Of a stretch of 64,000 bases of DNA, positions 5,311-63,197 are shown in pieces. Under the pieces are notes generated by a model. It was given only the letters and a program-made list of their open reading frames with translations, searched no databases and was not told the DNA's origin. Every line of letters starts with the position of its first letter. The stretch's first letter is position 1. Origin of the DNA: Dillenia suffruticosa (lineage: Eukaryota; Streptophyta; Magnoliopsida; Dilleniales; Dilleniaceae); NCBI GenBank assembly GCA_033439265.1, contig JAVTVX010000031.1, forward strand, positions 18,582,001 through 18,646,000. Direction: 5' to 3'. Position numbers and translations under genes: made by a program.

Positions 5311-5374
5311 AAATTTTTTTTTTCCATATATCATTCACAAGAATATTTCCATCTTCATCAAACAATAAACCAAC

Positions 5375-11975: not shown

Positions 11976-14145
11976 AATTCTCTTTTAGAACAGAAAGAAA
12001 AACTTCCACACTAGATAATAAGTAACAATATACTATATTTTTCTATGAAGAATGTCTTAATTGTTCATTCCATAATGCATGCTTCGAATAAGAGCAGGAC
12101 GTTATAAGCCTTGCATTTGCAGCCACAATCCAGGGAACTTAACATTTTCTCATAATTTTTCGTTGCTTGTTTGCATAAATAGTATGCTTAGTATATCTGC
12201 ATTTTTCACTACAAATCTTGTGGCCTCGCATGGCGACATCATCAGGTGCCAGAAAAGGAGCTTAGATCGGTGTTTGAATTTGTATATGTGATTGTGCTTA
12301 CGTTAGGCAACTCTGCCTCATGCTTTCAACCACAAACTCTATAGCTGAGAACGAAGGCTTGAATTTGGGAGTGGGATTTTGGGTTGCTGGTCCTTATTGT
12401 CCTTAGTGAAAGTCTAGGCGGCAAGTGTTTTCTTGGGTAGCTAGCTTTTGATTGCCTGCCTACTATTTGATGGGCGGATTTCTGATTTAGGTTCTTGTAT
12501 TATACCCCCTATTTTGAGGTTAAGTTCGTACCCAATTTAGGTATGGTCCTTTGTTTTGTGATGTTTGTACGCCATTATTTTGTCATGTTGGTGTGTAGTT
12601 TGGCTCTTGCCATTGCTTGTCCTAGGTTCTATGTTCGGGGACCTAGGCTCCCTACGCACAAAAAAGAGAGTAACAACATTCTACTTGCACAATGCTAAAA
12701 CATTATTTCTCTGTTCACTGATATTACCCCGAGACATTGTCTGCTAATTTATGGTCGTTCCAGCTCAAAAATCCGAACAACCATGAAAGAAAATCTTAAT
12801 CAATTCAAAACTCAGAGAGATGCACCAGCATCAAGTACTTAGAATTTATGATCGGTTCTTTGTTAATATAATTTCCCACCATACCTCCAGAGAAATATGC
12901 CAATTGCACATTCCAGCTGTGGATGGGAAAATCATCATTATAAAAATAAGCTTAATCTGAAACACGAAGATTCATGAAACTAATTGAGCCATCAAGATGG
13001 TACCAACAATCATACACATTAACATTAAGCCAATATTTTACATGATTTTAAATTTCCGGCCGGTTGTAGATTCGAGCCTAAATTCTCCTTTAGTACAAAA
13101 AGAAAAATGTTCCACACTAGATAATAAGTTACTATATACTATTTTTTCTATGAAGAATATCTTTAATTGTTCACTCCGTAATGCATGCTTCGAATAAAAG
13201 CAGGACATTATAAGCCTTGATACCACGCATTTGCAGCCATAATCCAGGGAACTTGAGACAACATTTTCTCAATCTTCTGGTGCATGTCTGCATAAATAGT
13301 ATGCTTAGTACATGTGCATTTTCCACTATAATCTTGTGCCCTCGCATGGCGACATCATCGGGTGTAAGAAAAGGAGCTTAGATCACTGTGCTTGAATTTG
13401 TATATGTGATTGTGCTTACGTTAGCCAACTCTGCCACATCCTTTCAACCACGAACTCTATAGCCGAGAACGAAGGCTTGAATTTGGGAGTGGGGATTTTG
13501 GGTTGCTGGTCCTCATTGTTCTTAGTGAAGGTCTAGGCGGCCAGTGTTTTCTGGGGTAGCTAGGTTCTGATTGCCTGACTACCATTTTGATGGGCAGATT
13601 TCTGACTTAGGTTCTTGTGTTGTACCCCTTATTTTGAGGTTAAGCTTGTACCCAATTTAGGCATGGTCCTATGTTTTGTTTTGTTATGTTTGTATGCCTC
13701 GTCCTATTCGGACAAAAAAAGAGCAATAACATTCTGATTGCACACTGCCAAAACATTACCCCGAGACATTTTCTGCGAACTTTTCCAAGAAAGAAAATCT
13801 CAATCTATTTTTTTTTTACATAGAAATTTAAACTCGAACCACTAGATTCGATTGGAATAGAAGGATTGTGACTACTACTGGGGACAAGATCTTAATCTAT
13901 TCAAAACTCACAGAGATGCACCAGCATCAAGTACCTGGAATTTATGATCGATTCTTTGTTAATATAATTTCCCACCATACCTCCAGAGGTATATGCCAAT
14001 TGCACATTACAGCCGTGGATGGGAAAATTATCATTATAAAAATAAGCTTAATCTGCAACAGAAAGATTCATGAAACGAATTAAGCCATCAAACAATCATG
14101 GACATTAACATTAAGCCAATATTTTACATGACTTTAAATTTCCGT
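11940..14145. repeat. Diverged tandem duplication, unit about 1.1 kb
   Basis: Unit 1 (about 11940-13062) and unit 2 (about 13063-14145) are direct repeats. Shared landmarks in the same order include CACACTAGATAATAAGT, AATGCATGCTTCGAATAA, GAACGAAGGCTTGAATTTGG, CCCACCATACCTCCAGAG and ATTAAGCCAATATTTTACAT. By eye they are roughly 85-90% identical with several indels. No long open frame is conserved between the copies, so the unit looks non-coding. Both units begin at SINE box-B-like wording, which may have seeded the duplication. Confidence 0.8.
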
Positions 14146-16899: not shown

Positions 16900-17763
16900 T
16901 TAAAGAGATGTCTTACCATTCGAATTCGATCTCTTTATCTTCTTAATCTTCTGAAGCTGAACTTGAGTCTCCATAAACATCTGCATTCTCTGAAACTCCA
17001 AATCCTTCAAAAACTGCATTCTCTGCTTCTCCAATTCAATCATTTGCCTCTGCTTTTCCCTCTCAATTCTCTCATACGCCTCTCCAAATTTCATAATTGC
17101 CTTGGCCAAATCCCTAATCCCCTCTCCAAGTCCTAGCCTCTTCTCCTCTTCCTCCTCCTCACTAAACCTAGAAGCCTCCGAATCACTCTCACCATGTCTC
17201 CCCACTTCCTCCTCGTCCTCGCACTCCTCCTTCGCCGCCGCCGCCGCCGCAACCGCCGAATAATTCCTCTTGAGAAACGAATCGTCCATCCCCACACTTG
17301 CGGCCTCCAACGGCGTCGATTTCTTCAACGGCAAAGAAATCGCCACCGGAGGCGACGTTGGAGAACTCACAATCGGCCGTTTCATCGAGTTTCCGATCAG
17401 AAAATCCAACCGATCAAAGAAAATCCAAGAGCTCTTCACAGATCCGTTCGATTCCAAAACCTTAGCTTTCTCGATCTTGTATTTCTTCTTGATAGTGTCG
17501 ATCCGGTTTTTGCACTGGATGTCGGTTCGGAAGGTCTTCTTGGTGTGGCCATGGCGGTGATTAACGGCGTTAGCGACTTCTTGCCAGTGCTGTTGACGGA
17601 GATTTCCGCGATTCAGTTGAAGATAACGGCTGCCCCAAGCCCCGATGAGAGTCGCCGTCGCATCTTCCGTCCAACAGTCTTCGCGAACGGGGAGGGATTT
17701 GGTGTGAAACGGCGTCGTTTGGGGAATCGGAGGAAGAGACAAAGGTTGTTTGAGATCTTCCAT
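16900..17763 (-). CDS. Trihelix transcription factor (SIP1/ASIL-like clade)
   Basis: The 287-residue DNA-binding protein is a plant-specific trihelix (GT/Myb-SANT-like) factor that should act in the nucleus. The trihelix domain spans about residues 29-125, with WTEDATATLIGAWG at 31-44, the second Trp at 60, IQCKNRIDTIKKKYK near 82-96 and WIFFDRLDFLIG at 113-124. A basic and acidic linker follows (178-207). A C-terminal amphipathic coiled coil at about 203-275 is rich in E/K/Q and M, typical of the SIP1-like clade, and probably mediates dimerisation. The start follows a CT-rich 5' leader on the minus strand. In the last codons, AATG|GTAAGA (intron would start at 16916) is a good donor, so the true C terminus may lie in a further exon and KTSL may be read-through. 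Members of this clade include seed-programme repressors and histone-linked ENAP proteins. The exact orthologue is not assignable. Confidence 0.92.
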   Translation of the reverse strand: MEDLKQPLSLPPIPQTTPFHTKSLPVREDCWTEDATATLIGAWGSRYLQLNRGNLRQQHWQEVANAVNHRHGHTKKTFRTDIQCKNRIDTIKKKYKIEKAKVLESNGSVKSSWIFFDRLDFLIGNSMKRPIVSSPTSPPVAISLPLKKSTPLEAASVGMDDSFLKRNYSAVAAAAAAKEECEDEEEVGRHGESDSEASRFSEEEEEEKRLGLGEGIRDLAKAIMKFGEAYERIEREKQRQMIELEKQRMQFLKDLEFQRMQMFMETQVQLQKIKKIKRSNSNGKTSL

Positions 17764-18400
17764 TTCGCGAAGAAAGCAAAAGAGAGAGAAAGAGGGATAG
17801 GAGAGAGAGAGAAAAGGAGGAGAGGTAGAGAAGAGACGGCGAAGGGCCGGGAAAGGAGAAACGCGTGAAGGAAGACATCATGGGAAGAGAGTGGATGAGA
17901 GGCGCGAGAGAGTACGGTAAGGTCGCCGGTCGAAGAGAGAGAGAGAGGGTAAGCGCGTGAGCCGACGTTCACGCGACTTGAAAGTTGAAATTATGATTTT
18001 GTTTTTATTATTATTTTTTTTAATTTTTATTAGTTGCATGGGGGAATTGAGTGAAGAGAAAGAAAGTGGAGGGGGGTTTGCGTCGGTGTTTGGAATTCGC
18101 GGCTGATTGGGTGAGAGATGCGACTGAAACGGCCAGGGAGTATGAACGGAACGGACGGGCAAATGGGTAGAGAGAGAGAGAGAGAGAGAGAGAAAGTGAC
18201 GTGTGGAGGTGTGGGGCGTGGGGACAGGGTGGGATGTCTGAAAACTGAAAGGGACCGAGGAGGAGGAACCCGGGTTCCGGTTTTGGAGAAAAATGGTGCC
18301 ACGTGTTTCGTCTCCGGTTGGCCAGCGACTCCCGTTCCATTTCCTGTGGCGCTTGCCTTATTTGCCCTTTTCCACGTTTTTTAGATTTTGCTCCCACGAG
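17764..18400 (-). promoter_or_regulatory. Probable 5' leader and promoter of the trihelix gene
   Basis: The stretch is less AT-rich than its surroundings and full of GA/CT runs (17780-17830, 17930-17950, 18171-18193). A perfect G-box CACGTG lies at 18300-18305, about 540 bp upstream of the ATG. G-boxes bind bZIP and bHLH factors. Open frames here are GA-repeat artefacts. The promoter role is inferred from position. Confidence 0.5.
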
Positions 18401-21024: not shown

Positions 21025-21585
21025 TTACAGATCACTTGGTGACTCAGAAATGCTCTCCAAATGAGGTCTCCAAACACCAACACGTCCTCTTCTTCTATCT
21101 TTCTGGGTAGCAATTTTCTCATGTAGTATATCACTCAAATACCTATCGGATATGAGAAAATTACTCATAGAAAGAGAATTGTTGTTAATGGTGTTGCTAC
21201 TAACGTTGTTCTTGTTGGCAACATTCTCGGATGGTAATTCTGATAAAGATGATGATCTCTTCTTCTTCTTCTCTGAAGATCGGGTTTTTCCCGGTGCGGT
21301 TGGAACTGGCATGAGGAAGTAGATCTTCCCACGTTGGAGTTCTGCATCGGGTGGCACGATCACGATCTTAGGTACAACGCTGTCATCCGAGGTTGATGCT
21401 GGTGATGAGGGTTTCTTGAGTACATGCTTTGGATGAGCCTTCATGATCTCACTTGCTCGGATGGTGCCGCTTAGTTCTTCTACTCTTCCATTTGAGTGTA
21501 CTATTCGGACTACGTCAAGTGCTCCGCATGGAAGAATGCAAGCTATGCAGCACCTTATGGTGTTCTTCATGGCTCCTTCTCTCAT
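21025..21585 (-). CDS. DUF4228/PADRE-domain protein
   Basis: The frame has 186 codons; the second Met (21570), giving MKNTIRCCIACILPCGALD, is the more typical family start and yields 181 residues. The hallmarks are in order: the N-terminal Cys-rich stretch with LPCGALDVVRIVHSNGRVEEL, a central PPDAELQRGKIYFLMPVP, a basic linker (KKKKRSSS), and the C-terminal ISDRYLSDIL plus RRRGRVGVWRPHLESI. This is a single-exon plant family whose members often respond to pathogens and abiotic stress. Its biochemical function is unknown. A TATA-like ATTATATATA lies at 21728-21737 on the minus strand, about 145 bp upstream, with a GA/CT-rich leader between. Length and motifs are normal. Confidence 0.94.
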   Translation of the reverse strand: MREGAMKNTIRCCIACILPCGALDVVRIVHSNGRVEELSGTIRASEIMKAHPKHVLKKPSSPASTSDDSVVPKIVIVPPDAELQRGKIYFLMPVPTAPGKTRSSEKKKKRSSSLSELPSENVANKNNVSSNTINNNSLSMSNFLISDRYLSDILHEKIATQKDRRRGRVGVWRPHLESISESPSDL

Positions 21586-21727
21586 TTGAGAGAGAGAGAA
21601 AGAGAGAGAGCGAGATGGGAGAAGAAGAAAATATATTGGAGAGAGAGAAGGCTAGCTCTTTTCTTCTTTGCCCTATCGATGAGAAAGGGTATCAATCACA
21701 CCAACAAGAATTTAGTAACAAAGGATG

Positions 21728-23520: not shown

Positions 23521-23988
23521 ATCAACTTACACAAAAAAAAAATAATAATAATAACAAAACAAAAGTGTTCACGTTGGTTCGGACTGTTTGCTAATTTTTG
23601 GTTAATTAAGTCCCATCCATGGGGGGTGACCCACCCATTAAATGGTTCAGATGTAGACGTAAGTGGGCAACATGTGAGGGATAAATGGGTGAGGGGTCCA
23701 TTTAAATGTGCTGATAAATGTGGATGCCCTTTATCACAAAGTCTAACCTACTTTAAACTATATCTTCCTATGAACTTAAAAAGGAGAATGAAAACCCTTT
23801 GTCTTTCTTCTAATGTAGAGTATTCTTGGTTAAGATTAGTGGAAAAGTAACTAAATAATAGAAAGAAAATAATGAGTCCAAATAGTTCATTTTTCTTTTT
23901 TTCTTTTTAATAATAAGCATAAATTCACTATAAAGATCATTTACTATGCGAAATGTTGGATTTAAGCTAAAATTTCTCACTTATGTTA

Positions 23989-24002
23989 CACTACAAAAAA
24001 AC
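23989..24002 (+). repeat. CACTA terminal inverted repeat (element 3' end)
   Basis: CACTACAAAAAAAC, identical to the complement of 34017-34030. TNP2-type transposase acts at such ends. Confidence 0.95.
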
Positions 24003-24017
24003 TTGTATTTAGCCACA

Positions 24018-24760
24018 AATTTTGCGACGAAAATTTAAAAAATATTCGTCGCTAAATTATTTAGCGACCAATTTTTCGACAAAAACGAATTTGTCGCTAA
24101 TAACTCGTCGCAAAATTTTCCGACAAAAAATAAGAAATTTGTCGCCAATTAGCGACAGATTATAGTTCGTCGCAAATTTCGTCGCAAATATTAGCAACAA
24201 AAAATTTTTAGTTGCAATTTTGCGACAACATTTGCGACGAAACATTTTGTCGGAAAAATTTCCAACAAAAAAATATTTGTTGCAAAAATTGTTGCACAAA
24301 TTAGCAACCAATTATTTTTTGTTGCAATTTTCCGATCAATTTTGCGACGAAATAGTATGTTTCAAATTTCTCAGACGGAAAATTCGTCGGATAAATTAGC
24401 ATCAAAAATATTTTTGTTGCAATTTTGCGACCAATAGAACGACGAATATTTTTTGTAACAAATTAGCGACAAATTTAGTCGTTGCAAAATTCCAAGAATA
24501 GTTTTTTGTTGCTAAAATTTGCAACAAAATCTGCGACGAATTTAATTTCGTCGCAATTTGCGACAAAATTTATTTGTGAGATAATTTGTCGCAATTCTGC
24601 GACAAATTCAGCGACGGCTTTTGCGACGAATTTTGCAACAAAATCTTAAAAATTCAGCAACAAATTTTGCAACGAATGTCAAAATCAGCGACGAATTTAG
24701 CGACGAATATAGACAATTTGCGACAAAAAGATTTAATTTGTTTAATATTTGCACCAAATT
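24018..24760. repeat. Subterminal repeat zone at the element's 3' end
   Basis: Dozens of variants of GCGACGAA / TTCGTCGC and TTGCGACAAA occur in both orientations over about 740 bp, irregularly spaced and AT-rich. In En/Spm, short subterminal motifs of this kind in both orientations are bound by the second element protein (TNPA) and bring the ends together. The motif here differs in sequence, so the role is by analogy. The open frames in this zone are artefacts of the repeats. Confidence 0.85.
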
Positions 24761-25071
24761 TCCACGTATATCATATTCCTCCCTGATAGTCTCAACCAAC
24801 CAGTTTATGAACTAAACCACCAACATCATCATCAACAAATCATCCAGGGTACCATCGAACACACATGAGTACGAAATTTATGCAGTATCTACTCATTCAA
24901 ATAACTGACCATCTAATAGTATGAATGAAATAATAATTAAAAAAACAGTACCATCGTCATGAAATAATATTAAACAGTACTAAATAAGTTACAGAATATC
25001 GAATTTGTAGAAGTAAAAATGAAATTCTAATGAGAAGTCTAATTAAATATAAACGTGAAATAAAAATTGTT

Positions 25072-27283
25072 TCAAAAAACATTATCACCATCATCGTTAC
25101 CATCACCATTACCGTCACCGACACCATCACCATCACCATCACCAAATATGTCAAAATCATCATCACCATCATTTGGAGGAGATAGAGAAGGGGGAATCGA
25201 ACTTGAAGCGGAAACTAGCTGAAGATGCTGCATTATAAGCCTCTGTTGTGCGCGAAACTCTTCAAATTCATTGTCTCTTCGCTGCTGTTCAACGCGCATG
25301 GCTTGAAGTTCATTGTCTCTTCGCTGCTGTTCTACGCGCATGACTTGAAGTTCATTGTCTTTTTGTGCTAACAGCTCCTTCATGTGGCTCAGCTCTTGGT
25401 TCATTTGCATTAATTCTGCTCTAACTGGTGTCTGCCCGGAAGAACTTAGACCACTGAGTCTGCAAGTTCTGCTCAATGAGCCCATCCCAAGTACTCTTCC
25501 CTTCTTTGCTCCACCAGTTGCCTCGAGCCATAAAGCCATATCATTAACAGATGGCTCAGACGTTGCAGCATCATCACTACCACTGGAATTTCTAAGTAGA
25601 AGTTGGTCATATTTCTCCTGCATTATCGTATAAGAAATTAGAAGAAAAATAAAATAACAATATAATAAAATATCCAACGAAAAAAAGAAGTGTCAATTAA
25701 CAGTTGAACAAATTTTTAAAAAATCTAACAAATAAAGTAAGAATACAAAATTGTATTTCTCATTAAGCGATTGACAGTAAGCAATAAGACACAAAAATTA
25801 TCTTTGTCAATCAAATATTATAAATTTAATACACTTATGGAATTCGAATGATATTTAGTTGCTTAATCCATTAAAATGATATTTAGATAATGAGGAGTGT
25901 TGTAATTGAAATTAAAATTCGACTACTATTACGAGTTTGACACTATAACAGATCGAATAAAGGAAAAAATTATACTATACGTGACATAATGAACCAACCA
26001 TTTGGAATGGACGTAACAAATTTGATATTATGTATTTTCTAATTTTAATTTATAATGATTCATATATATATATATGAATTTGAAATGAAAAGTTCAATTT
26101 AAGTATTTGAGAAATTATTGGAATAGACAAATCTATTAAATTCTTATTATAATGTTGTGATGATAAATTGAGCAAAATATGTTAAAAAAAAAGTTTTTAT
26201 AAAACAATTTAAATTTTTGAAATTACATACCATAACCGTTCTAGCTCTCTCCCCACTCCAGGTCTTGTCTTTTTTCTGAAAAGTCCGTGCGAAAGTCTCT
26301 TTAAATGATGGCGGTGATCCCATTTCCTTGATCTAAAAACAAAACACCGTTAGATGAATTAATGAAAAAATAAATGAATTAAATACAAAAGAATGGTAAT
26401 TGAACCAAATTACCATTCTAATTCTATGCTCATCAATATTGATTGAGCCTCCCGCATAAGTAGCAGATGATTCCCCTGAATTATAAGCTCGATTTATTTT
26501 ATTTTGCTCACTCCTCCGTTGGCTCTCATCGGAATCCCAAAAATTTAAAATGTTGAGCAAATTTTCTTCGGTGATGCAGTGTGGCTTCTTTCGGCTTTTT
26601 TTTGCATGATTCAGTACACCTCGGATGTGATGACCGCATTTTTTTTTAAATATTCTTCTTATTTCAAGCTCCTCGGTCTCATCCCAATTGAACTTTCGCT
26701 AAAAAAAAACAATTTGTTATATTTAAATTATACACTGAATTGTATATTTAAACTTAGAGGCCTCATTTACCTTGAATTCTCTCCACCATAGCTCTTTGAT
26801 ATCATCTGGAGTACTTGTGTATGACATCGATGCTCCTCCCCAATGGTTGTTAATGATTCTATTCAGCTCATGAATAACATACACAGAATTTGTGAATCTA
26901 TCATAAAATTAGAAAAAAAAATGGTTAGTAAAAAAAATTTTTAAATAAACTAATAAATTGTGATAATATTTCAATTTTTAATACTTACGAATCTCCGCAA
27001 GGGGATATCACCTCTCGCGTATCTTCCCCTTCAACGTGTGAAGCTTGCATTGAAGGTACAATTGAAGGTGCAACTGATGGAAACGGTGAAGGTATATCAG
27101 TACAAGGCGAAGGGGCATGGGAAGGTGCAGCTGAAACGGACGGTGACGCCGAAGAGTTTGGTCTTGCATTAGAAGATCGTCTATGTCCTCCACGTTGAAA
27201 CTGTAACAAGAGTTTTTTCTTGCAAGCAATGAATATTGCATGATTTTAAAAAATATATTAGAGTATATGAAGAAACATACCAT
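25072..27283 (-). CDS. CACTA second gene: Ptta/En-Spm-type (Transposase_24-like) protein
   Basis: A six-exon gene can be threaded at GT/AG sites: 27283-27281 (ATG), 27200-26989, 26897-26771, 26698-26414, 26332-26231 and 25617-25072. All junction phases agree, giving 424 residues and no stop. The N terminus is low-complexity, rich in Ser, Pro and Ala. The middle carries the family signature: WGGASMSYTSTP, then ELWWREFKRKFNWDE, then a Lys/Arg-rich helix and FKETFARTF. The C terminus holds a coiled coil with a 14-residue repeat built on MRVEQQRRDNEL and an Asp/Gly-rich tail. This is the partner gene of TNP2 in plant CACTA elements and probably binds DNA and other proteins at the subterminal repeats. 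It lies about 200 bp downstream of TNP2 on the same strand. Alternative first exons are possible upstream of 27283, where an acceptor-like site occurs at about 27311. Confidence 0.87.
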
Positions 27284-27482
27284 ATTTAAATTGTCGTCAG
27301 AAATGAGCTATAAAAAAAGAAAATATATTAGCAAACAATATTTCGAAAATGAAACATTAGGCACTAAATATAACATACAAAATTGAACTCTAAATGTATT
27401 TTCACATGAAAACAGTAAAATAAAATTTCATATTATGTTAGACAATTTTAATAAATCTTAAAAAAACAATACTTACCGACGA

Positions 27483-30400
27483 TCAAATATCAAAGTAATT
27501 ATTGTCATCATCATCCTCATTATCAGAGTCTTCAACATCAAATTCTTCCTCATCTTCATCCTCATCTTCATCATCTGTCTCCAAATCAGGTTCTTCATCG
27601 CCAGACTCATGAATTTCATTTTGATCCACATCTATCATTACTCCATGTGGATCTCGTAATGTTGGAATAATATATTCCTCAGTCTGAAACGTATTGCCAA
27701 CTTCCATTTGTTGATATGCCATGTCTTCCCAACGTTCCTCAATTTTCTTTCGTGCTTTCGTTTTACAAACAGCCCACCAATCAACTTTGTCACGTTTCAA
27801 ACTAGGATATGAAGCATAATACACTTGAATCGCTTGTTGTGCCAATACGAATGGTTCATATCTTTTATAAAATTTTTTATGATTTATATCAACCAATTTA
27901 AACTTTGGATGCACATTCATCCCTTTTACGGGGTCAAACCATTGGCACATAAATAAAACGACTCGCAACTCTGCTCCAGTGTACTCAACCTCTATAATTT
28001 CATCCAACAAACCATAAAACTCATCTTTTACACCTCCATCGTTGGATGACTGAACACAAACACCACTATTCATAGTAGCTTTTCCGGTTCCATATTCTTG
28101 AGTGTGAAAATTATACCCGTTTATAAAATACGATGGCCATGTTCGCACCGTCGAATTTGGACCCCATGACAGATTAACTAACAATTCTTGTTCAACTTGA
28201 TCTTGATTACATTGAACCTGAAGTAAAATAAATGTGTTATATTTTTAATAATCAAATAGATATAAAATTTAAAATTCGTAAAACTAACATATGTTTTGAA
28301 CCATGCTGCAAAATCTTCATCGCACACACGATTGAACTCATGCATCGATAGTTCAGACCGTGAATGTTGAAAAATCCTACGATTAAAGAAAACGATTTAT
28401 GTCAACAATTTTTAAAAAAAAAAACACATTTTTTATACTTGAGAAAAAAGGACTTACTCGAAGTATGGCGTAACTTCTGGACAGTTCAGTAAAATATATG
28501 TATGGGCTGCCCGCCATTCTTTCGCAGTTAAATATCTAACCTTACATGACCCACTTGGTCGACCGAGATAGTTGAAAATAGAGAATGATTTTAATTTAGG
28601 ATCAACAGGACCCTCATCATTTCTACCCGCGCGCCGTCTCTTACACTGGACATGAGGCTCGAAATAATATGAAGCAAAAGTTGTCACTTCCTCCGCAATG
28701 TATGCATTAACAATAGATGCTTCAACCCGTGCCTTATTTTTCACTTTTCTCTTCAAATGATATAAAAATCTAATTGATATGGAATAAAAAGTGTATCAGA
28801 AAATGATATATAATAAATTTAGTACATTGACATGCACTATAAATATTATTATGATGAGAATGTGCAAAAGTTACCTTTCAAATGGATACATCCATCGATA
28901 TTGGACGGGACCTGCAACTCTGGCCTCATAAGGCAAGTGAACCAAAAGGTGTTCCATGGAATCAAAAAATGAAGGAGGAAAAATCCTTTCTAAATTACAT
29001 AAAATGATAGGGATATCTTTCTCCAATTTCGCCATATGTGATTCCTTTAATACTGTCGAGCAAATATCATGCAGGAAAATACTTAACTCCGTAATGACGG
29101 ACCATACAAAATCTGGTAATATTTCCTTAAAAGCAATTGGAATCAATCTTTCCATAAATATGTGACAATCATGACTTTTCAAACCAATCAACTTGCATTC
29201 TTTCATATCTACACATCTCCCAAGATTTGAGGCATAACCATCAGGAAATCTAAGGGATTTCAACCATTCACAAACTTTCCGTCTCTGATCCTTATTTATT
29301 GTATAAATTGCCTTTGGTTTTGGTCCCTTACTACTTCCATCCGCATCAAGTGTAGGCCGATTACAAAGAAGCCGCATATCTTTTCTCGCATTCAAGTTAT
29401 CTTTCGTTTTTCCAGAGACATCCATCAATATATTAATCAGATTATCGAAAACATTTTTCTCGATATGCATCAAATCGAGATTATGATGAATCAGATGGGT
29501 CTTCCAATATGGTAAATCCCAAAATATACTCCGTTTGGTCCATTTATGTACACTTCCATATCCGTACGTTGTATCATGTGGGTCTTCAATTGCAGATGGA
29601 AATTGAGACACTTGCTCCCAAATTTGTTCACCAGTTAATCTCAACGGAGGAGGTGTTTTTTCAAATTTATTTTTCTTAAATTCTTCTTTATTTCTTCTAA
29701 ATTTATGATTGCGTGGCAAAAATTGTCTATGACAATCAAAATAACTCGCCTTCTTACCATATTTCAATCGGAATGACTTAGATCTCTCCATACATATTGG
29801 ACATCCTAAAACCCCAGCAGTACTCCATCCCGATAGCATGCCATAAGCTGGGAAGTCATTTATCGTACAAAGAAGAATTGCCTTCATTACAAACATTTGC
29901 TCAGTGTTAACATCATACGTAAGAACACCGTTATCCCATAACTGTTTTAACTCCGCAATCAATGGTTGCATATAAACATCAATCAACTTCTTCAGATTTT
30001 GCGGGCCCGGTATAACCAATGTCAAAAACATATAGGGTGTTTTCATACACATACCCGGAGGTAAATTATAAGGAGTTAATATCACTGGCCAACATGAATA
30101 ACTTTTTCCCGATTTTCCAAATGGAGCAAAGCCATCAGCACAAAGACCTAACCTAATGTTTCGAGTCTCTCTTGCAAATTCAGGATATGTCATATCAAAA
30201 TTTTTCCACACCTCTGTATCCGAAGGATGACACATTAACCCTTCCTCTGTTTGATGATTTGCATGCCAAGTCATATATTCAGCAGTAGTTTTCGATGCAT
30301 AAAGTCTTTGCAATCTAGGAGTCAAAGGCAAATAAAACATTTGCTTGAATGGTTTACGTCGCTCAGTACGACCTGCTGTCCTAGTACTCTTGTACCTACT

Positions 30401-31234
30401 TTGGTTACAGAATTTACAAAATTGTACATTTTCATCATTTCCCCAAAACAACATGCAACCATTTATGCATACATCAATTCTTTCCACCGGAAGGCCCAAG
30501 TCATTCACCAACTTTTTCATACTATAAAAGTCATTCGGCATTATATGATCACGAGGTAATACTTCTCCCATTACTTGAACAATATCATTGAAGCAATTCT
30601 CAGACATATTATGCTCTGCCTTAACATTTAACATTCTAGCCGTTAATGACAATTTAGTGTGGGTGTCACAACCAACCCATAACGGTTCATCTGCAGCTCT
30701 CAACATTTCTTGAAATTGGTTAGACAAATAATTCTCATGTTGCACATTCTCATCGACACATGTTGCTTCTACCCCCTCCAATGGTGATGCATAAGATGTA
30801 GGTACATCTTGATTTGTTGGTATAGAACTAGAACTTGCATTGTTTGTTTGGGGAAAAAAATTATGACCCGCTGCATCAAATACCATCTGCTGATATGGAT
30901 TTAACTGATCATAACAATTGTTATCCCCTGTACTTGAATATTCCAAATTTTGCACATACTCTTCATCAGATATAAATGGTTCACCATGACAAGTCCAATT
31001 GTAGTAATTTAAAGTAAAACCAAATCTACAAAGATGTTCCCTAACTTTATCACATACATGAAATTTGCCATTACCACACTTTGTACACGGACACCTTAAC
31101 TTATTTCCATCCATAAACTGAACATTACTAGTAGCGAAATTCAAGAATTGTTCCACCCCACAAATAAACTCATCAGTTAAACCACGACGATCAGGTAAGT
31201 TCTTATTATACATCCAATTTCTTTCGTTTTGCAT
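27483..31234 (-). CDS. CACTA transposase, TNP2 family (Transposase_21)
   Basis: Four exons join in phase at canonical sites: 31234-28875, 28769-28458, 28376-28289 and 28217-27483, giving 1164 residues with no stop. Domains in order: transposase-associated N-terminal zinc-finger-like domain (about 6-85, with RCPCTKC at 47-53); the TNP2/Transposase_21 core (about 255-600) with acidic residues Asp367 in LCADGF, Asp460 in TINDFPAYGMLSGW and Glu592 in HIEKNV, candidates for a DDE catalytic triad; then DUF4218-like (exons 1-2, ending in the ECPEV-like CPEVTPYFE) and DUF4216-like (exon 4, LFMCQWFD). An Asp/Glu-rich tail closes the protein. The enzyme cuts element ends and mediates cut-and-paste transposition in the nucleus. 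Size and domain order are those of full-length family members. The start MQNERNWMYNKNLPDRRGLT is typical. A 5' untranslated exon further upstream is likely. Confidence 0.93.
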
Positions 31235-32730
31235 TGTCGCTGTTAAAAAAAAATATATTATAAAATATTAATAAATTAATTATTAACAAACTATATATTA
31301 AACTGACAAAATAACATTAATAAGAAATAAAGCACATCTAAAAACAAAACATTTTAAAATTATTTAACATATTTTCAGAAAATTTAACAAATATAAAAAC
31401 GTTGAGTCGGAAAAATAACAAAATAATTTATAACTATTGCATTTCACGAATTCACAACATACATACATTGAAACTAAGAATAAGGGATATAAAATAAAAA
31501 ACAAAAAATAAAATATACGACAAAAAATATATACCTCGACCGCTTGAAGACAAGAATTTCTCCCCTTTAATTGAACAACACGTCCAATCAACGCAAACAC
31601 ATCTGCAATGCAAAACCATTAATGTTATTTTGACAAAATTTAGGGTACGAAATTTTCTCAGTCATTGCGATTTATCGTTTCTCATTTTTAAATTCTACAA
31701 CTTAATCATTGGGGTTAAAGGTGTCACTCAGAGGAGAGAAAAAGTTTTACAATGAACAACAAGAGACGTCAAGGTCACTATGTTGTGGTTGGCTATTAGA
31801 AATACTAAATACTATTCTTTTTATTTCAAATTTATTTTAGAGTAGTGAAATGAAAAGTATGTCACATGACATATAAGTCAAGCGAAAGAACCAAATCTAT
31901 CAAAGTGCAAAATTCATCAATGACAATAGGTTAAAATTTAGGGGGTAAGTAAATCATATCAAATTGGACTCTGGTGGGGGCAAAAATTATGGGAAAAAAT
32001 TAAATAACTAAAATGTAAGTCATTGAGACAAAATTAACAAGAACAACAATAAAAATTATAGAATCAATCGCAAAGAAATTCAAGAAGAAATATAACACAT
32101 AAGCCTGGGCATAAAGCTAAAAAGAACTGTCATAATTTGATGTAAATAATCTAATTTTGGCCTACATGTTATGGTTAGTTGGAATTTATCGGAAAGAAAG
32201 CACTTTCATTAAAAGCATCAAGATGGTGCAAATAGGTGCAAATAGACACATTGAGGTATTCGTTGCAGCTAGAGAGTAAGCAAATGTGTTTTTTACTTTT
32301 TTATGAGGAGACGATTAATTTATGGTAAATCCCATCATCATAGTACAAATACCTCAATGTGGTAGAATTTCAAATTTATTAGCATGTATTTGATTCACCA
32401 ACAATCATAACAAAGCAACTTCATATTGTGGCCATACAAAACATGTAATAATTAACAAAAATTCTCAAAGTTAGCATAAGTTCGAATATTGACGGAACAT
32501 TCCGAAACTATCAAAGATTTCAAAATTAACATATATTCATTCGATAGAAAATTCTAAAATTAGCAAAGATTTTATAATTAATAGAAACTTAAATATTGAT
32601 TATTAAAAGTTCAAAAATTAATAAAAGTCTGAATACTAATAGAAGTCCAATGACTGTTTACTGGAAATTACCCAAAAACTAGTTATGAGTTAAAAATCTA
32701 AAAACTAATAAATAAGTTCAAAAATTCATT
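31235..32730 (-). other. CACTA 5' non-coding part (probable leader intron)
   Basis: AT-rich DNA between the transposase ATG and the GC-rich repeats. No open frame of note. In En/Spm the transcript starts near the subterminal repeats and has a GC-rich leader, so this stretch is probably a leader intron. No donor/acceptor pair could be fixed by eye. Confidence 0.45.
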
Positions 32731-32732
32731 TA

Positions 32733-33126
32733 CTGTGGCCAGATCTCAGCGGGGGAGGCGCTGCGGCGCCTCCCCCGATGTTCAAAGAAACCCGGGGGAG
32801 GGGCGCTGCCCCTCCCCCGGTCGGCCCCGCCTGCGAAGATGCGGGCGGGGCCATCCCGTCCGAGATCCGGCCTCTGTGGCCGGATCTCAGCGGGGGAGGC
32901 GCTGCGGCGCCTCCCCTGAAGTTCAAAGAAACCCGGGGGAGGGGCGCTGCCCCTCCCCCGGTCGGCCCCGCCTGCGAAGATGCGGGCGGGGCCATCCCGT
33001 AGGAGATCCGGCCTCTGTGGCCGGATCTCCGCGGGGGGAGGCGCTGCGGCGCCTCCCCCGCCGTTGAAACCAGCCCGGGGGAGGGGCGCTGCCCTTCCCC
33101 CGCCATGATCCGGCGGGCCGCCGGAT
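32733..33126. repeat. GC-rich 141-bp tandem repeats in the CACTA 5' region
   Basis: Three units start at 32733, 32874 and 33015, exactly 141 bp apart; the third is partial. Each carries palindromic GC-rich wording such as GGAGGCGCTGCGGCGCCTCC and CCCGGGGGAGGGGCGCTGCC. The block is strikingly GC- and CpG-rich against AT-rich surroundings. Maize Spm has a GC-rich downstream control region in the same position whose methylation controls activity, so an analogous role is inferred. Long open frames across the block are compositional artefacts, not genes. Confidence 0.9.
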
Positions 33127-33127
33127 C

Positions 33128-33175
<48 letters not shown>
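33128..33175 (+). repeat. (AG)n microsatellite inside the CACTA 5' region
   Basis: About 24 AG dinucleotides lie between the GC-rich repeats and the palindromic array. Confidence 0.9.
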
Positions 33176-33178
<3 letters not shown>

Positions 33179-33307
33179 TACCTCGTTGGAGGGGGACGAC
33201 CGCGGGGAAGAGAGGGGGAGAGGAGGAAGAGAGGGAGAGGAAAGTGGGGGGAAGAGAGGGAGAGGAAAAATGGGTTTGATGCATTAAAAAAATTTTGCAA
33301 CGAAAAC

Positions 33308-33880
33308 AGCGACGAACTCGTGTTCGTCGCTGAAAACAGCGACGAACTGCGGGTTCGTCGCTGAAAACAGCGACGAACTGCGTGTTCGTCGCTGAAAACA
33401 GCGACGAACAGCGTGTTCGTCGCTGAAACCAGCGACGAACTGCGTGTTCGTCGCTGAAAGCAGCGACGAACTGCGTGTTCGTCGCTGAAAACAGCGACGA
33501 ACTGCGGGTTCGTCGCAGAAAACAGCGACGAATAGATGGTTCGTCGCAGAAAACAGCGACTAACTGGGTTTCGACGCTGAAATCAGCGACCAACTCAGGG
33601 TTCGTCGCTGAAAATAGCGACGAACCGCGGTTTCGTCGCTGAAATTAGCGACGAACTCAGGGTTCGTCGCTGAAATTAGCGACGAACTCAGGGTTCGTCG
33701 CTGAAATTAGCGACGAACTCAGGGTTCGTCGCTGAAATTAGCGACGAACCGCCGTTTCGTCGCTGAAATCAGCGACGAACTCAGGGTTCGTCGCTGAATA
33801 CAGCGACGAACTGCTTGTTTGTCGCTGAAATCAGCGACGAACACCCTATTCGTCGCTGAACCGCGACGAGGAATGGTTTC
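33308..33880. repeat. Array of about 19 palindromic 31-bp units (CACTA subterminal region)
   Basis: Each unit has the form AGCGACGAAC-(4-6 nt)-GTTCGTCGCT followed by a GAAAxx spacer, so each unit alone can form a hairpin with 9-10-bp arms. Units recur about every 31 bp. Central units around 33640-33740 are nearly identical, suggesting recent homogenisation. The array is followed to 34016 by degenerate motifs of the same kind. By analogy with TNPA-binding motifs near the Spm ends, these are likely binding sites for an element protein and part of the promoter. Confidence 0.88.
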
Positions 33881-34016
33881 GTCACTAAATTAGCTACGAA
33901 GTTTTTTTCGTTGCGAATTTTGTTGGAAAATGCTTATGAAATTTTTTTCCGCCGCCAAATTCGTTGCAAAACAGCAACAAAAAATGTTTGTCGCAAATGT
34001 CCGTCGCAAATTCCGT

Positions 34017-34030
34017 GTTTTTTTGTAGTG
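34017..34030 (-). repeat. CACTA terminal inverted repeat (element 5' end)
   Basis: The complement reads CACTACAAAAAAAC, identical to the other end, and is followed directly by the TTA target duplication. Confidence 0.95.
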
Positions 34031-34033
34031 TTA

Positions 34034-35527
34034 TAAATTATCAGTATTTGAAATCGTGTTAAAATCAACTAAATCTGAATTTGAGTCTAGTTAGACACTT
34101 AAGTGGTATCTGATAATCATTATAAAAATCTTTCGATATTTATTTTTTTCATACATAATATTCGAATTTAACATCTTGAAAAAACTAATCAAATCCAATG
34201 TATTTACTGGATATTGATATTTTATTTTTAAAAAAAAATTCTCACTCTTCGGCGATGCCCTTGCCATGGAGGTGGGGCTGTGAGGGCAACTCCTTAAAAT
34301 TTTAAAGGAAAAGAATGATGTATAATTTTTTTATGTTGTTTCAATAATTTCTTTAAAAATCTTAAAATTCAGTTAAAATTCTGTAAAATATTGTTTATTA
34401 AAAAATTATAATTTCTATCTTATCTGCTCTCTACATGGTGCATTTTACTTACTAATATAAATTTTCTAACATTACTCCTACTGTTGAATCCATCATCCTA
34501 ATCTTGTCAAAACCTTACACATCCGATACTAATTCATTTATAACTCATGAATTATTTTTTTTTACTTGACAATTAATATTCAAAATCTTATTAATTTGAT
34601 TCGAGCTACTATAAGTTTAATTTAGAAATTATCTCTCTCGTTTTTTATTTTTCAAATTTTAATTCGAAACCTTGATTAAAATAGTTTAATATTTTATCAC
34701 TAAATTTATAATCGTTAAATTAACTCTGAATTTAATAAGCAAACAAATTCCTAACATGACATAACCCCAATTTTTTTCCTAATGGGTGGTAATAAAATGT
34801 AAGTTTTGGAGTAATTGAGGTATTGGGAAATGTGGTATTTTTGTGCGTTGGGGGGGGGGGGTTTCCTACGCAAATCATGACAATCTCAATTCAAGATGGA
34901 GAATCATGGAAGTTGCCCTCCGCAAGGACATCTTACTTTCGGATCATACAAAAATTTTCTCATTGATGTCTTCCTGAGTAAATCTCACTCTGTAGGTTTA
35001 ATGTTCTGAGTACCAAGTTCAAGGATATTCTTCTACCCCATCACTACTCTGCTGAAATCACCACCAAACTGTTGAATACCATTCCTCTCTCTCTCTCTAC
35101 TTACCCACTCATTGGGCAATATATGGACAAGTTTTGATAAAAAATATATATATATATATCTGTCATCTTCGGAGTGGACTATATTCATTTTCGGAGCCAT
35201 TCGATAATCTTTTTTTCTCACAATTAATGTTAGCATAAAATCATGAAGTCCAGACATTTTCAATATGTCCAGAAAAGAGCCACTTGACCTTTATGTCTGT
35301 CTTTTGTTCTCTTCCATTTAATTTTTTTTTCACTTCCTTTTTCGTTTTCTTTCAATCCCTTCAAAAGTGGACGATTGCAAAATGATTGAAAAGAGCTGAC
35401 AAACTGGCATTTGATATGATATATAGTTGGTAAACATTATATCATATTTGGGACCTTTGCCATGTGATATTGGGTTTATGGAAGTTACATGTTCCTAGGA
35501 TGACATTCTCATGGTGCTTACCCTAGC

Positions 35528-37925: not shown

Positions 37926-38067
37926 CAAGCGGCCCAATTGTAATATGAGAGAGCTTAAGCCCACTTTAGAGTACTAGGGACAACTTGGGCCTTCTTACCA
38001 AAAAATGGGCCGTAACATGTCTGCACAACCTTATCCAATTCCATCAAACACCAAAATCACTTTCTGG

Positions 38068-38068
38068 C

Positions 38069-38106
<38 letters not shown>

Positions 38107-38141
38107 TCTCACAAAAAAAAAAAAAGAGAGAGAGAGAGAGA
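38068..38141 (+). repeat. (GA)n tract in the PEX7 5' leader
   Basis: GA repeats interrupted by an A-run (38068-38106 and 38125-38141) lie just before the PEX7 start. The tract is in frame and stop-free with PEX7 from an upstream ATG at 38005, where it would encode Arg/Glu repeats. Confidence 0.85.
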
Positions 38142-38187
38142 GGAGTCCATCTGTACCAAAAAAAGAGAGAGGAGTCCACTCCAACAG

Positions 38188-39138
38188 ATGCCGGTCTTCA
38201 AAACCCCGTTCAACGGCTACGCCGTGAAATTCAGTCCCTTCTACGAAAGCCGACTCGCCGTCGCCACTTCCCAAAACTTCGGCATCCTTGGCAACGGCCG
38301 TCTCCACATCCTTAACCTCAACCCCTCCGGACCCATCTCCGAATTCGCCTTCTTCGAAACCTCGGACGGCATCTACGACCTCGCCTGGTCGGAAGACAAC
38401 GACAACATCGTCATCGCCGCCATCGCCGACGGCTCTGTCAAAATATACGACCTCTCTTTTCCCCCAACTCAAAACCCCATTCGCTCTCTCCACGAACACT
38501 CCCGCGAAGTCCACTCCGCTGATTACAACCCAGTTCGCCGAGATTCCTTTTTAACCTCGTCCTGGGACGACACAGTCAAACTTTGGACTATTGACAGACC
38601 CACGAGTGTCCGTACATTCAAGGAGCACACTTACTGCGTGTACTCTGCAGCGTGGAATCCTCGGCATGCCGATGTTTTTGCTTCAGCTTCTGGGGATTGT
38701 ACTCTCCGAATTTGGGATGTTCGTGACCCGGTGAGTACGATGATTATCCCTGCACATGAATTTGAGATTCTGTCTTGTGATTGGAATAAGTACGATGAAT
38801 CTTGCATTGTCTCTGCATCCGTTGATAAGTCAATTAGGGTTTGGGATGTGAGGAATTTTAGGATTCCAGTGGCGGTACTGAATGGACATGGGTATGCAGT
38901 TAGGAAAGTGAAGTGTTCACCACATAGGCAGAATATGATTGTTTCATGTTCCTACGATATGACAGTATGTATGTGGGATTATATGGTGGAGGATTCGCTT
39001 GTTACTAGGTATGATCATCATACAGAGTTTGCCGTTGGAGTTGATATGAGTGTGCTTGTTGAAGGGCTTATGGCGAGTACCGGGTGGGATGAACTTGTTT
39101 ATGTTTGGCAGCACGGGATGGATCCTAGAGCGCCGTGA
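38188..39138 (+). CDS. PEX7: Peroxisome biogenesis protein 7 (PTS2 import receptor)
   Basis: The 316-residue protein starts MPVFKTPFNGYAVKFSPFYE, the conserved PEX7 N terminus, so 38188 is chosen although the frame stays open upstream to an ATG at 38005 through GA-repeat DNA. The whole protein is a WD40 propeller. Repeats are visible as DGIYDLAWSEDNDNIVIAA...IYD, HSADYNPVRRDSFLTSSWDDTVKLW, CVYSAAWNPRHADVFASASG...IWD, ILSCDWNKYD...SVDKSIRVWD, and a closing ASTGWDELVYVW. PEX7 binds the PTS2 nonapeptide of matrix proteins in the cytosol and, with PEX5 in plants, delivers them to the peroxisome docking complex. The length is close to the Arabidopsis protein and the gene is a single exon. A poly(A)-signal-like TAATAAAAATAA lies at 39259-39270. 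Confidence 0.96.
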   Translation: MPVFKTPFNGYAVKFSPFYESRLAVATSQNFGILGNGRLHILNLNPSGPISEFAFFETSDGIYDLAWSEDNDNIVIAAIADGSVKIYDLSFPPTQNPIRSLHEHSREVHSADYNPVRRDSFLTSSWDDTVKLWTIDRPTSVRTFKEHTYCVYSAAWNPRHADVFASASGDCTLRIWDVRDPVSTMIIPAHEFEILSCDWNKYDESCIVSASVDKSIRVWDVRNFRIPVAVLNGHGYAVRKVKCSPHRQNMIVSCSYDMTVCMWDYMVEDSLVTRYDHHTEFAVGVDMSVLVEGLMASTGWDELVYVWQHGMDPRAP

Positions 39139-42332: not shown

Positions 42333-44093
42333 GTCCAAAATACCCTTGGTAGTTTGGGCTGTCTTCTTGGGCTTTTCTGGGCTTCTTTGGGATTTCATTT
42401 TGGACCTCTCTTAATGGACTTTCATCCCTCCAACTGTGCCTTTCTTCATGCTTTTCTTGCTGCATAAAATAGGCCACCAAAGTTGGCTATGTTCTGGAAC
42501 TTTTTCTGGATAGTATTCTGTCCAGTTTAGAACCAGCTTCCTTGGACCGGTTCTTAGGTCATTTTGACCCCTTTTTTTTCTTCTTTTATTGGACTTTTGA
42601 TGCACCTTTGCTATTCAAGTTTTTGACGAATTAGGGCTATATATTCGGGAGGCATCCATTCGCATGCTTCTTGGAATATTTCATCGTCATCTTCAACATA
42701 GCCTACCATATATTCTTCTGCAGATTGGATTGTATAAAACATGAATTAAATCCAAGAAATTACATGAAAAAGGCTTAAAATATGATCTGCTATCATATCT
42801 AGAGCCACCCTATAAGAAGAAAGCACATTTTTCTGTTGAGGTCTTGAGGTTGTATAATAGGAGAGTAACAGATTACATAAATTCAAAATTCAACTATGTC
42901 ATTGGTACTCAAATTGGTTTTCCACTTTTCTGTCCAACAGATGGAGTTATGAAAGATTAAAATGTAGGAGTTAGAGATTGTTAAGATAATTAACAATTAA
43001 CACAGTTCTTTATATTCATATTTGTCAACAAAGGAAAAAGTAGTGAAACAAGATAAATGTGTGACAGAATGCAAACTGGGATTCTAATGAATGAATTTCA
43101 ATGTCCTTGGAGGGGTATCAACTGTGCATTTCCAGTTGATGCAAGTAGTGTGAGAAGAAATCAGAAGGAATATTAAATTATTCAACTTCTTCAGTAGGCT
43201 GATTGTGTCCAAAATACCCTTGGTAGTTTGGGCTGTCTTCTTGGGCTTTTCTGGGCTTTTCTAGGCTTCTTTGGGATTTCATTTTGGACCTCTCTTAATG
43301 GACTTTCATCCCTCCAACCGTGCCTTTCTTCATGCTTTTCTTGCTGCATAAAATAGGCCACCAAAGTTGGCTATGTTCTGGAACATTTTCTGGATAGTAT
43401 TCTGTCCAGTTTAGAACCAGCTTCCTTGGACCGGTTCTTAGGTCATTTTGACCCTTTTTTTTTTTCTTCTTTTCTTGGACTTTTGATGCACCTTTGCTAT
43501 TCAAGTTTTTGACGAATTAGGGCTATATATTCGGGAAGCATCCATTCGCATGCTTCTTGGAATATTTCATCGTCATCTTCAACATAGCCTACCATATATT
43601 CTTCTGCAGATTGGATTGTATAAAACATGAATTAAATCCAAGAAATTACATGAAAAAAGCTTAAATTATGATCTGTTATCATATCTAGAGCCACCCTATA
43701 AGAAGAAAGCACATTTTTCTGTTGAGGTCTTGAGGTTGTATAATAGGAGAGTAATAGATTACATAAATTCAAAATTCAACTATGTCAGTGGTACTCAAAT
43801 TGGTTTTCCACTTTTCTGTCCAACAGATGGAGTTATGAAAGATTAAAATGTAGGAGTTAGAGATTGTTAAGATAAATAACAATTAACACAGTTCTTTATA
43901 TTCATATTTGTCAACAGAGGAAAAAGTAGTGAAACAAGATAAATGTGTGACAGAAAATGCAAACTGGGATTCTAATGAATGATTTTCAATGTCCTTGGAG
44001 GGGTAACAACAGTGCATTTCCAGTTGATGCAAGTAGTGTGAGAAGAAATCAGAAGGAATATTAAATTATTCAACTTCTTCAGTAGGCTGATTG
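42333..44093. repeat. Recent 0.88-kb tandem duplication
   Basis: Copy 1 (42333-43206, 874 bp) and copy 2 (43207-44093, 887 bp) are direct repeats, about 97% identical by eye with a few small indels. Both start GTCCAAAATACCCTTGG and end TTCAGTAGGCTGATTG. Minus-strand open frames at 42411-42605 and 43295-43504 are the same peptide in both copies but match no known family. The content may be part of an old retroelement; this is uncertain. Confidence 0.9.
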
Positions 44094-49089: not shown

Positions 49090-50477
49090 TGATAGAGCTT
49101 AAATAAATATAATATTTACGATTGATTTTGTATTATTTTTGAATAAATATTACACTAATATTTATGTTTTGTGACATTTGATTTAGGAGAAAACTTATTC
49201 TGGAAAATGAAGAAAAATGAACTAAATTGGAGTAATTTTATAAAGTATAGAAAATTAGACAGCAATACTTTTTCATTAGCACGTGGGCACGTGGATTTCA
49301 AGAGACAAACAAGAGATTTTGAAGATTTACTACAGTAAAAATTTCCTTTCCCAGTTACACATTCAAGAGGAAATTAGAGTGGAATTGGAATATTAAAGAT
49401 ATTAAAGAATTTTATTCCATTCCTAATATTTAAGAAAAGAATTTTTTAAAGATATAAATTTCTTAGATATTATGTTTTAGGAATTTTACTTTTTACTTTT
49501 TACTTTTTACTTTCTTTTTATTTATTTAGTAGTTATTAGGTTCAGCTGGGCAGCCCCCTTGGGGGCAGCACTATTCACGTCTGCAGTAGCAGCCGGTAGC
49601 CAGCAGCCATTGTCCATGTATCCCAACATTTTCTTTTCATTTTTAGTTTAATTTGTGAGTTTTTCTTTTTAGATGATTTTGGTTTAATTTATTTTTCTAA
49701 TAAAAGGATTATTGAAATCTTGATAAATGATGATTGTGAGATCTAAATGATCTTATTTGTTTGATATTTGTGGATATTTATTTAATCTCTATACTTAGTG
49801 TTTATAATTGTTTTGGAATTGTTAAATAGAGGGTTATGTTTAATAACTCTAGAATAGTCTACTATCATTTAAAAATAGCAAAATTTGTATATTTTTAATT
49901 GAGTGATAATTGACATAATTTTATGGTCTCGTAAACGGTAGGATTTATGTCAAGAGATTAGGTAATCTAATTTAAATAAATCCAGGTTGGAATTTACTGA
50001 TTAGAATTGTGTCTCTCTATATCTTAATGCTGTCGGAACATTAAATCCAACGAGTGTCTCTTGAGTTGTCTTTCGATTAGAGAAGTAATTAACGATGATA
50101 TCTTGATTACCGAAAAAGTACGGAAAGATTGGTCGCTTCGTGGTACTTAGTGGTTATAACCAATTTATTCGCATAATATCGAGTAATTTTTATATCGATG
50201 ATCAATCAAACATATCAAGACAGAAATAACTCATTTGTCTAGATTTTATCTTAATTGACATTTTTTCCTTTAATTGATATTATCTTATCATTTTATTTTA
50301 GTTAATTTTCATTGATTTGTTTGTATAGTTATTTTATTATTTCATCAAAACCCTCAATATTTTTATTTTTCTTGAAAGAGATAAATCCGCCGTTCCTTGT
50401 GAATTCGACCCTGCTCACCCTAAACTCGTATTTAGTGAAGTAGGTAATTTTATTTTTGGTTGTTTGACGACACACCA
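49090..50477 (+). repeat. 5' LTR of fossil A
   Basis: Direct repeat partner of 53945-55420. It starts TGATAGAGCTTAAATAA and ends GACGACACACCA. Confidence 0.9.
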
Positions 50478-50624
50478 AATTTTGGAACCGTTGCTAGAGA
50501 ACGGTATTAAGTGATTTATTTTTTTTAAGTTTTGTTTCCTTTTTATTTTTGGGACTAATATTTACAGTGAATTTACTGAAAGTTTGTCAACGACATTGAA
50601 GAGAAGGATTTTAATCATTCAGAC

Positions 50625-51832
50625 ATGGTCAGTCAAAAGACTTTAAGGGAGTTGTTATTTCCTGATTTTAATGAACATGCTTTTTGCAATAATTTTTCTA
50701 ATATTGAGACTCCTCATCAATTTGGAATATGGCAAGATATTCCAACAAGGGTCAATGAGGTGAGTAGTTCTTCTCTCGAACAGAAAATAGATTCCCTAAC
50801 TTCTATTGTGGAAAGATTGATTGTAGGACAAATCCAACAAGTGAAAACATGTGGTATTAGCTCGAACATGAGGCACTCACCGATAAGTGTCCCATTCTTT
50901 ATGGTGACCCATATTCGAATTCCTACAACCCAGGATGGTAGGATCAACCAAACTTCAGTTATAGAAATTGGTAACAAGAGTTCCCACAACAATCACAATA
51001 CCGACCACAATTTCAATCTCAGCAACCGTCTTTGAATCAAGGTACATCTCTAGAAAAGATTGTTAAAAGTTTGGCTAACAGCACTTTGTTAATTCAACAG
51101 GAAAGCCAACGATTTCAACAGGAGACAAGAGCCAACATCCAAAATTTAAAAAATCAAATGTCACAATTGATGGCAACAGTGAGTCGATTAGAAAAATCAT
51201 CAAAAGAAGTGGAAGACAATTCATCAAAAGCCAAAGAAGATACGAAGAACGAGCAAATAGAGAAATCATCAACAGCGAATGAATCCACCGAGGAGGTAAG
51301 TAAAGAGTCCAACACTTTCCAAACAAAAATTTTGATCTTACCACATGTTCCCAGTAGGTTAGCACAATCGAAGAAAGATGAAGAGAATGAGATTTTGGAA
51401 ACTTCTCCAAAAGAAGGATTCAACACTTCTCTCTTAGAGGCAACAAAGCAAGTGTCAATACCATTCATAAAAACAGTTGAGACAATAATTGATGTGGATT
51501 TGGATATTTTAACTCTTGAGTTTAATGGTAAAATTGTTACTTTTGATATTTTTGGTATCATGAAATATCCAAATGATTTTAAATCTATTTTTCATGATAG
51601 TATGGTGGATTTCATTATTCATGATAATTTTGTGCAACATGAATTGGATTTTGTGTTTAAGGAAAATGTGACAAATAAGGTTGCACAATGGGACAGATTT
51701 CTTGATGACAAACTCCCACATCGAAAACGATTTATGGTAGGCCATAAAGTCATTCATTTCAATTTAAGATTGAAATTCATTCCAGGCAAGTTAAAGTCAA
51801 AATGGATCGGACCGATGTTTGAACGAAATTGA
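50625..51832 (+). pseudogene. gag-like and short pol-end-like coding remains of fossil A
   Basis: The remains include a Gln-rich, coiled-coil-like stretch (LMATVSRLEKSS) typical of Athila/Tat gag and, at the end, wording like the close of a gypsy polyprotein (RLKFIPGKLKSKWIGP). The element is a fossil with several breaks, and no function is expected. Confidence 0.7.
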
Positions 51833-51945
51833 AGCGAGAAGATCATGTCGAGCCAAAAACACGAAACAAATGCGCTTATTGGGAGGTAACCCAATATTTT
51901 CTTTATGATTTATTTATTTTTATTTATGTTAACTTGATTTATGAT

Positions 51946-51986
<41 letters not shown>

Positions 51987-63073: not shown

Positions 63074-63197
63074 CATCCTTACATCGTTTCTCATCAAAAC
63101 CTGAAAAGAGGAAATCAAGGGAGAAGAATAACTGGTCTCACGGAGAGGAAAATTGTGGAATGGATAAGGACTCAACTGACACCCATATACATGACCT
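63074..63197 (+). pseudogene. Start of the MAX2-like copy 3 (relic of first codons)
   Basis: After the target duplication, 63080-63170 matches the 5' flank of copy 2. ACTGACACCCATATACATGACC (in part, from 63175) matches the first codons of the copy 2 pseudogene (55739 onward). The match stops at about 63197, and sequence matching the 3' flank follows at once, so nearly the whole gene body has been deleted. Confidence 0.75.

Follow-up and report, generated by a model that had tools for sequence, protein, structure and literature searches.

The window analyzed here is a stretch of 64,000 nucleotides from Dillenia suffruticosa (assembly GCA_033439265.1, contig JAVTVX010000031.1, positions 18,582,001 to 18,646,000 of the forward strand), and all coordinates below are counted within it. 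It carries a CACTA transposon of 10,042 bp at 23989-34030, whose two genes, TNP2 and then Ptta, follow each other from the promoter side on the minus strand. Comparison with its relatives suggests a full-length CACTA/EnSpm copy from a recent burst that probably no longer encodes a fully working protein pair. The locus comprises the following features:

23986..23988, no strand: left target-site duplication, TTA
23989..24002, plus strand: left terminal inverted repeat, CACTACAAAAAAAC
23989..24760, no strand: left subterminal region; repeats of the GCGACGAA / TTCGTCGC type lie here in either orientation
25072..27283, minus strand: Ptta/TnpA-like gene (Transposase_24), 424 amino acids, six exons (27283-27281, 27200-26989, 26897-26771, 26698-26414, 26332-26231 and 25617-25072)
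27483..31234, minus strand: TNP2 transposase gene, 1164 amino acids, four exons (31234-28875, 28769-28458, 28376-28289 and 28217-27483)
31535..31602, minus strand: predicted 5' untranslated exon, placed by splice signals only
32733..33128, no strand: promoter-side block of 75% guanine plus cytosine (GC), built of 141-bp units, in intron 1 by the predicted splice sites
33182..33189, minus strand: predicted end of a leader exon, with a GT donor next to it
33302..33860, no strand: right subterminal array, 18.1 copies of a 31-bp unit
34017..34030, minus strand: right terminal inverted repeat
34031..34033, no strand: right target-site duplication, TTA

The inverted ends, CACTACAAAAAAAC and GTTTTTTTGTAGTG, are perfect across 14 bp. 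Checking the borders bore out the original prediction of perfect 14-bp ends and a perfect TTA duplication at this site; its span of 23986..34033 does hold the element but takes in the duplicated TTA as well. Terminal inverted repeats that start with CACTA, a 3-bp target-site duplication, a TNP2-type transposase and short subterminal repeats, direct and inverted, at both ends are all features of the CACTA superfamily. The left side has 7 copies of the motif GCGACGAA and 4 of TTCGTCGC, the right side has 16 of each, and neither motif is found elsewhere in the window; the right-hand repeats of both make up the 31-bp array. Chance was rejected as the origin of the ends: of 747 CACTA/TAGTG pairs in the window with a spacing of 0.5-30 kb, five have a common 14-bp inverted end, and the element is the only one of these with a 3-bp duplication that matches. 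The remaining four involve positions within or close to the inverted repeats at 49-63 kb. These data support a structurally complete CACTA/EnSpm transposon with an already known domain layout.

Both rebuilt gene models have GT-AG borders at every intron and no internal stop, so the element has the two open frames that are a structural requirement of an autonomous CACTA element. The TNP2 protein matches the Pfam families Transpos_assoc, Transposase_21 (E 1.3e-80), DUF4218 and DUF4216, and the Ptta protein matches Transposase_24 (E 7.2e-22). Across 30 family copies the TNP2 splice sites are GT-AG at all three introns in 28, with one GC-AG and one AT-AG copy; all five Ptta introns are GT-AG in six of six copies. 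The claim of two genes that splice in phase thus stands, with splice sites kept in nearly all siblings. Splice signals also point to a leader exon whose end would be at 33182, followed by the untranslated exon 31602-31535 and by a predicted acceptor 5 bases ahead of the TNP2 start. By analogy with En/Spm as described in the sections of PMC2613891 and PMC8195511 drawn on here, TNP2 would be the transposase, cutting at the CACTA ends, and the Ptta-type protein a TnpA-like helper expected on the subterminal repeats.

We searched the genome (596 Mb, 37 contigs) with a 2.4-kb TNP2 probe and scored 40 of 1107 candidate matches; all 40 were at least 97% identical. Four siblings, on C26, C31 (12.56 Mb), C13 and C16, are 0.22-0.34% different from the window copy over 27380-32750 (~5.37 kb). 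A fifth copy, on C30, is alike in the gene and different on the promoter side. Each copy of the closest five-copy group has 5-8 private changes, and since the differences among these five are nearly all private, their pattern points to a burst. Private substitutions of the window copy number 6 in the 5243 ungapped columns of a nine-copy alignment and 4 in the 2359 columns of the Ptta block (six sequences), which adds up to 10 in 7602, or 0.13%. Plant substitution rates are 0.7-1.5e-8 per site per year, which would put the insertion at roughly 0.1-0.2 million years.

Both ends could be read in 18 copies, and 17 of these have perfect 3-bp duplications, namely the window copy, seven others, C13 and eight of another nine; the exception is C12:22959579. 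Outside this set, the copy at C4:13.31 Mb has an altered left end, its match beginning at base 3, and a right end beyond the fetched piece. Segmental duplication was set aside as a source of the copies, as flanking letters and duplications differ among them. The prediction that the element is young held up on its low divergence from four siblings, their mostly private changes and these duplications, and the data support a recent insertion during a burst that produced near-identical copies. The five youngest copies have 35 private substitutions, 28 of them C>T or G>A; the C>T contexts CG/CHG/CHH (4/3/21) track the background (224/208/1334), and we make no claim of a methylation signature. The promoter-side sequence at 32180-32750 varies strongly between copies whose TNP2 genes are ~98-99% or more alike, so that this side of the element turns over fast.

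The insertion site has a counterpart in a diverged duplicated region on C12, which matches the left flank. There, both flanks align around an element-free site at ~66-86% in longer pieces; the right flank was compared with the C12 piece only. About 206 bp of the right flank (34031-34236) are absent from the duplicate, which leaves the exact breakpoint uncertain. TTCTCACT is present at both borders of this stretch, which may be a small insertion next to the site of the element or around it. Either the element inserted after the C12 duplication or it was lost from the C12 region, and nothing more follows.

The case against a working protein pair comes from sibling comparison. Relative to its siblings, the TNP2 protein of the window copy has the missense changes P414L, W456C and G554D, of which W456C and G554D are found in this copy only among the 30; its Ptta protein has W161L and T210I relative to three relatives (C26, C13 and a short C12 copy). 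W456 lies within LLWTINDFPAY, four residues ahead of D460, and is tryptophan in 28 of the 30 copies, the exceptions being the window's cysteine and one stop. P414 is likewise proline in 28 of 30. We also aligned 17 sequences (the window copy, C26, L005 and 14 pieces from other Transposase_21 matches): position 456 is tryptophan in 15, a stop in one and cysteine in the window copy, and position 414 is proline in 16. Alignment A1, with 8 of those 14 pieces, has nearly invariant columns at both positions. The Ptta tryptophan is kept in 8 of 8 fetched Transposase_24 loci, examined with a pattern that does not require it. Residues that are otherwise almost always kept, distant CACTA lineages of this genome included, are altered in both proteins of the window copy: TNP2 W456C and P414L and Ptta W161L. 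Pfam scoring of TNP2 in 10 open copies out of the 30 fetched gave the window copy the lowest Transposase_21 score, 271.4 bits, while the others reached 272.1-280.7 (C26 280.7, C16 280.6 and C13 279.2). For Ptta, the Transposase_24 match scores 82.0 bits from residue 159 in C26 and 78.5 bits from residue 165 in the window copy.

Because some missense changes of both proteins fall on normally conserved residues, we think that the encoded pair is probably not fully functional. The copy would have gained its ~0.13% private substitutions since insertion, some of them missense at conserved residues of both proteins. Several observations weigh against this. P414L also occurs in one other of the 30 copies, and the 17-sequence alignment spans only about six lineages, several of its members being near-duplicates. 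The Transposase_21 score is just 0.7 bit under that of the next lowest copy, and the window copy exceeds C26 for Transpos_assoc (69.8 against 66.8) and DUF4218 (87.7 against 85.1). With these lower scores and its private changes L68F, P754H and A800V, C26 is itself not a pristine reference, as judged from its sequence. D367, D460 and E592, which we take to be the D/D/E catalytic triad, are intact in the window copy; D367 is kept in 29 of 30 family copies and the other two in all 30, and of the 17 sequences in the wider alignment, 16 have D367 and all 17 have D460. A search for solved structures of TNP2 homologs returned three matches, none of them credible, with E values of 0.43 or worse. Proteins may also tolerate a change at a conserved residue, and some of the substitutions could be assembly errors.

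Read with the window's gene model, 15 of the 30 TNP2 copies in the family, the window copy included, are open and have acceptable splice sites, and the other 15 are broken. The ratio of nonsynonymous to synonymous divergence (dN/dS) against the window copy is 0.85-1.83, with one value undefined, for the eight closest copies, which have very few changes (0-5 synonymous); for the other 21, older copies it is 0.41-0.80 at a dS of 0.019-0.036. This pattern fits selection on source copies followed by drift after insertion. Of six Ptta copies, those of the window, C26 and C13 are open; the three on C31 (12.56 Mb), C16 and C12 (the short copy) are broken. C26 and C13 thus have both genes open without the missense changes of the window copy, yet each has three private amino-acid changes of its own in TNP2. 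Another open copy, L016, even carries D367N, with asparagine in place of what is presumed to be the first catalytic acid.

Short relatives bear on whether the element could drive non-autonomous copies, as was predicted. The 40 best matches to the left end and the 40 best to the right end combine into 25 pairs, 16 of at least 9.5 kb and 9 of 2.8-7.9 kb, and seven of the eight short copies with ends read have perfect duplications. L082, a 5.5-kb copy on C12, is without the stretch ~27379-31799, which holds all of TNP2, and retains its ends and promoter side, together with a Ptta gene interrupted by a stop. L109, a 2.8-kb copy on C37, is without ~25919-32750 and has a short filler there. The deletion junctions of these two of the nine short copies each occur once among 40 scored matches, and in-place deletion after insertion explains them as well as mobilization in trans. 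With 9 of 25 pairs short, mobilization is possible for the family, but neither of the two tested junctions recurs among those 40 matches.

Full autonomy, with the changes at W456, P414 and W161 tolerated and the copy making both proteins and moving itself and its relatives, seems unlikely to us. The missense changes at almost always conserved residues of both proteins and the lowest Transposase_21 score of the ten copies argue against it, even though both genes are open and splice in phase, the ends and duplication are perfect, the presumed catalytic acids are present and divergence from the siblings is very low. The opposite extreme is a copy too old or silenced for its proteins or ends to be used, left from a burst that is over. 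TNP2 is broken in half of the copies, and the excess of C>T and G>A would be expected under methylation, equally under ordinary mutation bias. Perfect ends and the 0.22-0.34% separating the five youngest copies argue against this account, and the C>T contexts, tracking the background, do not show methylation; we regard this account as very unlikely. It is also rather improbable that the family is transposing today with at least one sibling as a live master, the window copy being weakly active or a source of competing defective transposase. We thus favor a recent full-length copy whose own protein pair has probably ceased to work fully. The prediction that it may still move is weakened by W456C, P414L and W161L, and keeps the open frames and the presumed D/D/E acids on its side; since the ends look intact, sibling proteins could still use them in trans.

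A copy with perfect ends and open, cleanly spliced genes is not thereby autonomous, and sibling comparison reveals drift at conserved residues in this one. The search for live plant transposons could practically start from a young, near-identical group of full-length CACTA elements such as this, in which some members have both genes open.

Elsewhere in the window, ordinary plant genes encode ALOG-domain (5369-5962), Myb/SANT-like (16903-17877), PADRE-domain (21028-21651) and WD40 (37978-39135) proteins. Tandem duplications lie at 12270-14091 (~1.1-kb unit, 92% alike) and 42368-44093 (~886-bp unit, 95-98% alike). Long direct repeats at 49090-55278 and 58902-63628, 4.85-4.94 kb apart and 90-94% alike, have inverted copies at 59-63 kb and are possibly nested retroelement copies; the open reading frames (ORFs) between the direct repeats, at 50580-51832, matched no Pfam family.

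A literature search on CACTACAAAAAAA together with CACTA found nothing related, the sole match, on a human virus, being judged unrelated, and another for the downstream control region of Spm had no match. The comparisons that follow hold for the portions of the cited papers drawn on here. The closest layout described is that of 'Type 3' CACTA elements (Belyayev et al. 2022, PMC8978399), in which ORF1 has TAD, Transposase_21, DUF4218-type and DUF4216 domains and ORF2 has Transposase_24; the window element has this protein layout in common with them, along with a size of 8-10 kb, CACTA ends and subterminal repeats in both orientations. It is unlike the Jozin elements of the same paper, whose ends begin CACTAGT and whose subterminal motif differs, as its own ends are CACTACAAAAAAAC. 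With the four-exon ancestral CACTA transposase (Buchmann et al. 2014, PMC4158355) it shares four exons, introns downstream of the catalytic region and a transposase length of 1,164 amino acids against an average of 1,163, a likeness in exon count, general intron placement and protein length.

Maize En-1/Spm has in common with the element a tnp2 domain, a second domain of the PF03004 class and, close to the end on the promoter side, a stretch rich in GC (PMC2613891). In En-1 this is exon 1, with 82% GC (PMC2613891), whereas the GC-rich block here would fall in an intron by the predicted splice sites, and unlike En/Spm, with its known alternative splicing, the element has two adjacent gene models, predicted from sequence alone. 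The lettuce LsC1 family (PMC8195511) is a further CACTA group, with an active member and tnpD/tnpA homologs recognized by Transposase_21/Transposase_24; LsC1 itself, unlike our element, is without transposase genes. Soybean Tgmt* (PMC2613891) is also a putative autonomous CACTA element with a tnp2 transposase, a 3-bp duplication, asymmetric subterminal repeats and nearly identical 13-bp ends. It differs in its 20.5-kb length, in a second domain of PF03017 (TNP1) rather than PF03004 and in being without a GC-rich exon 1.

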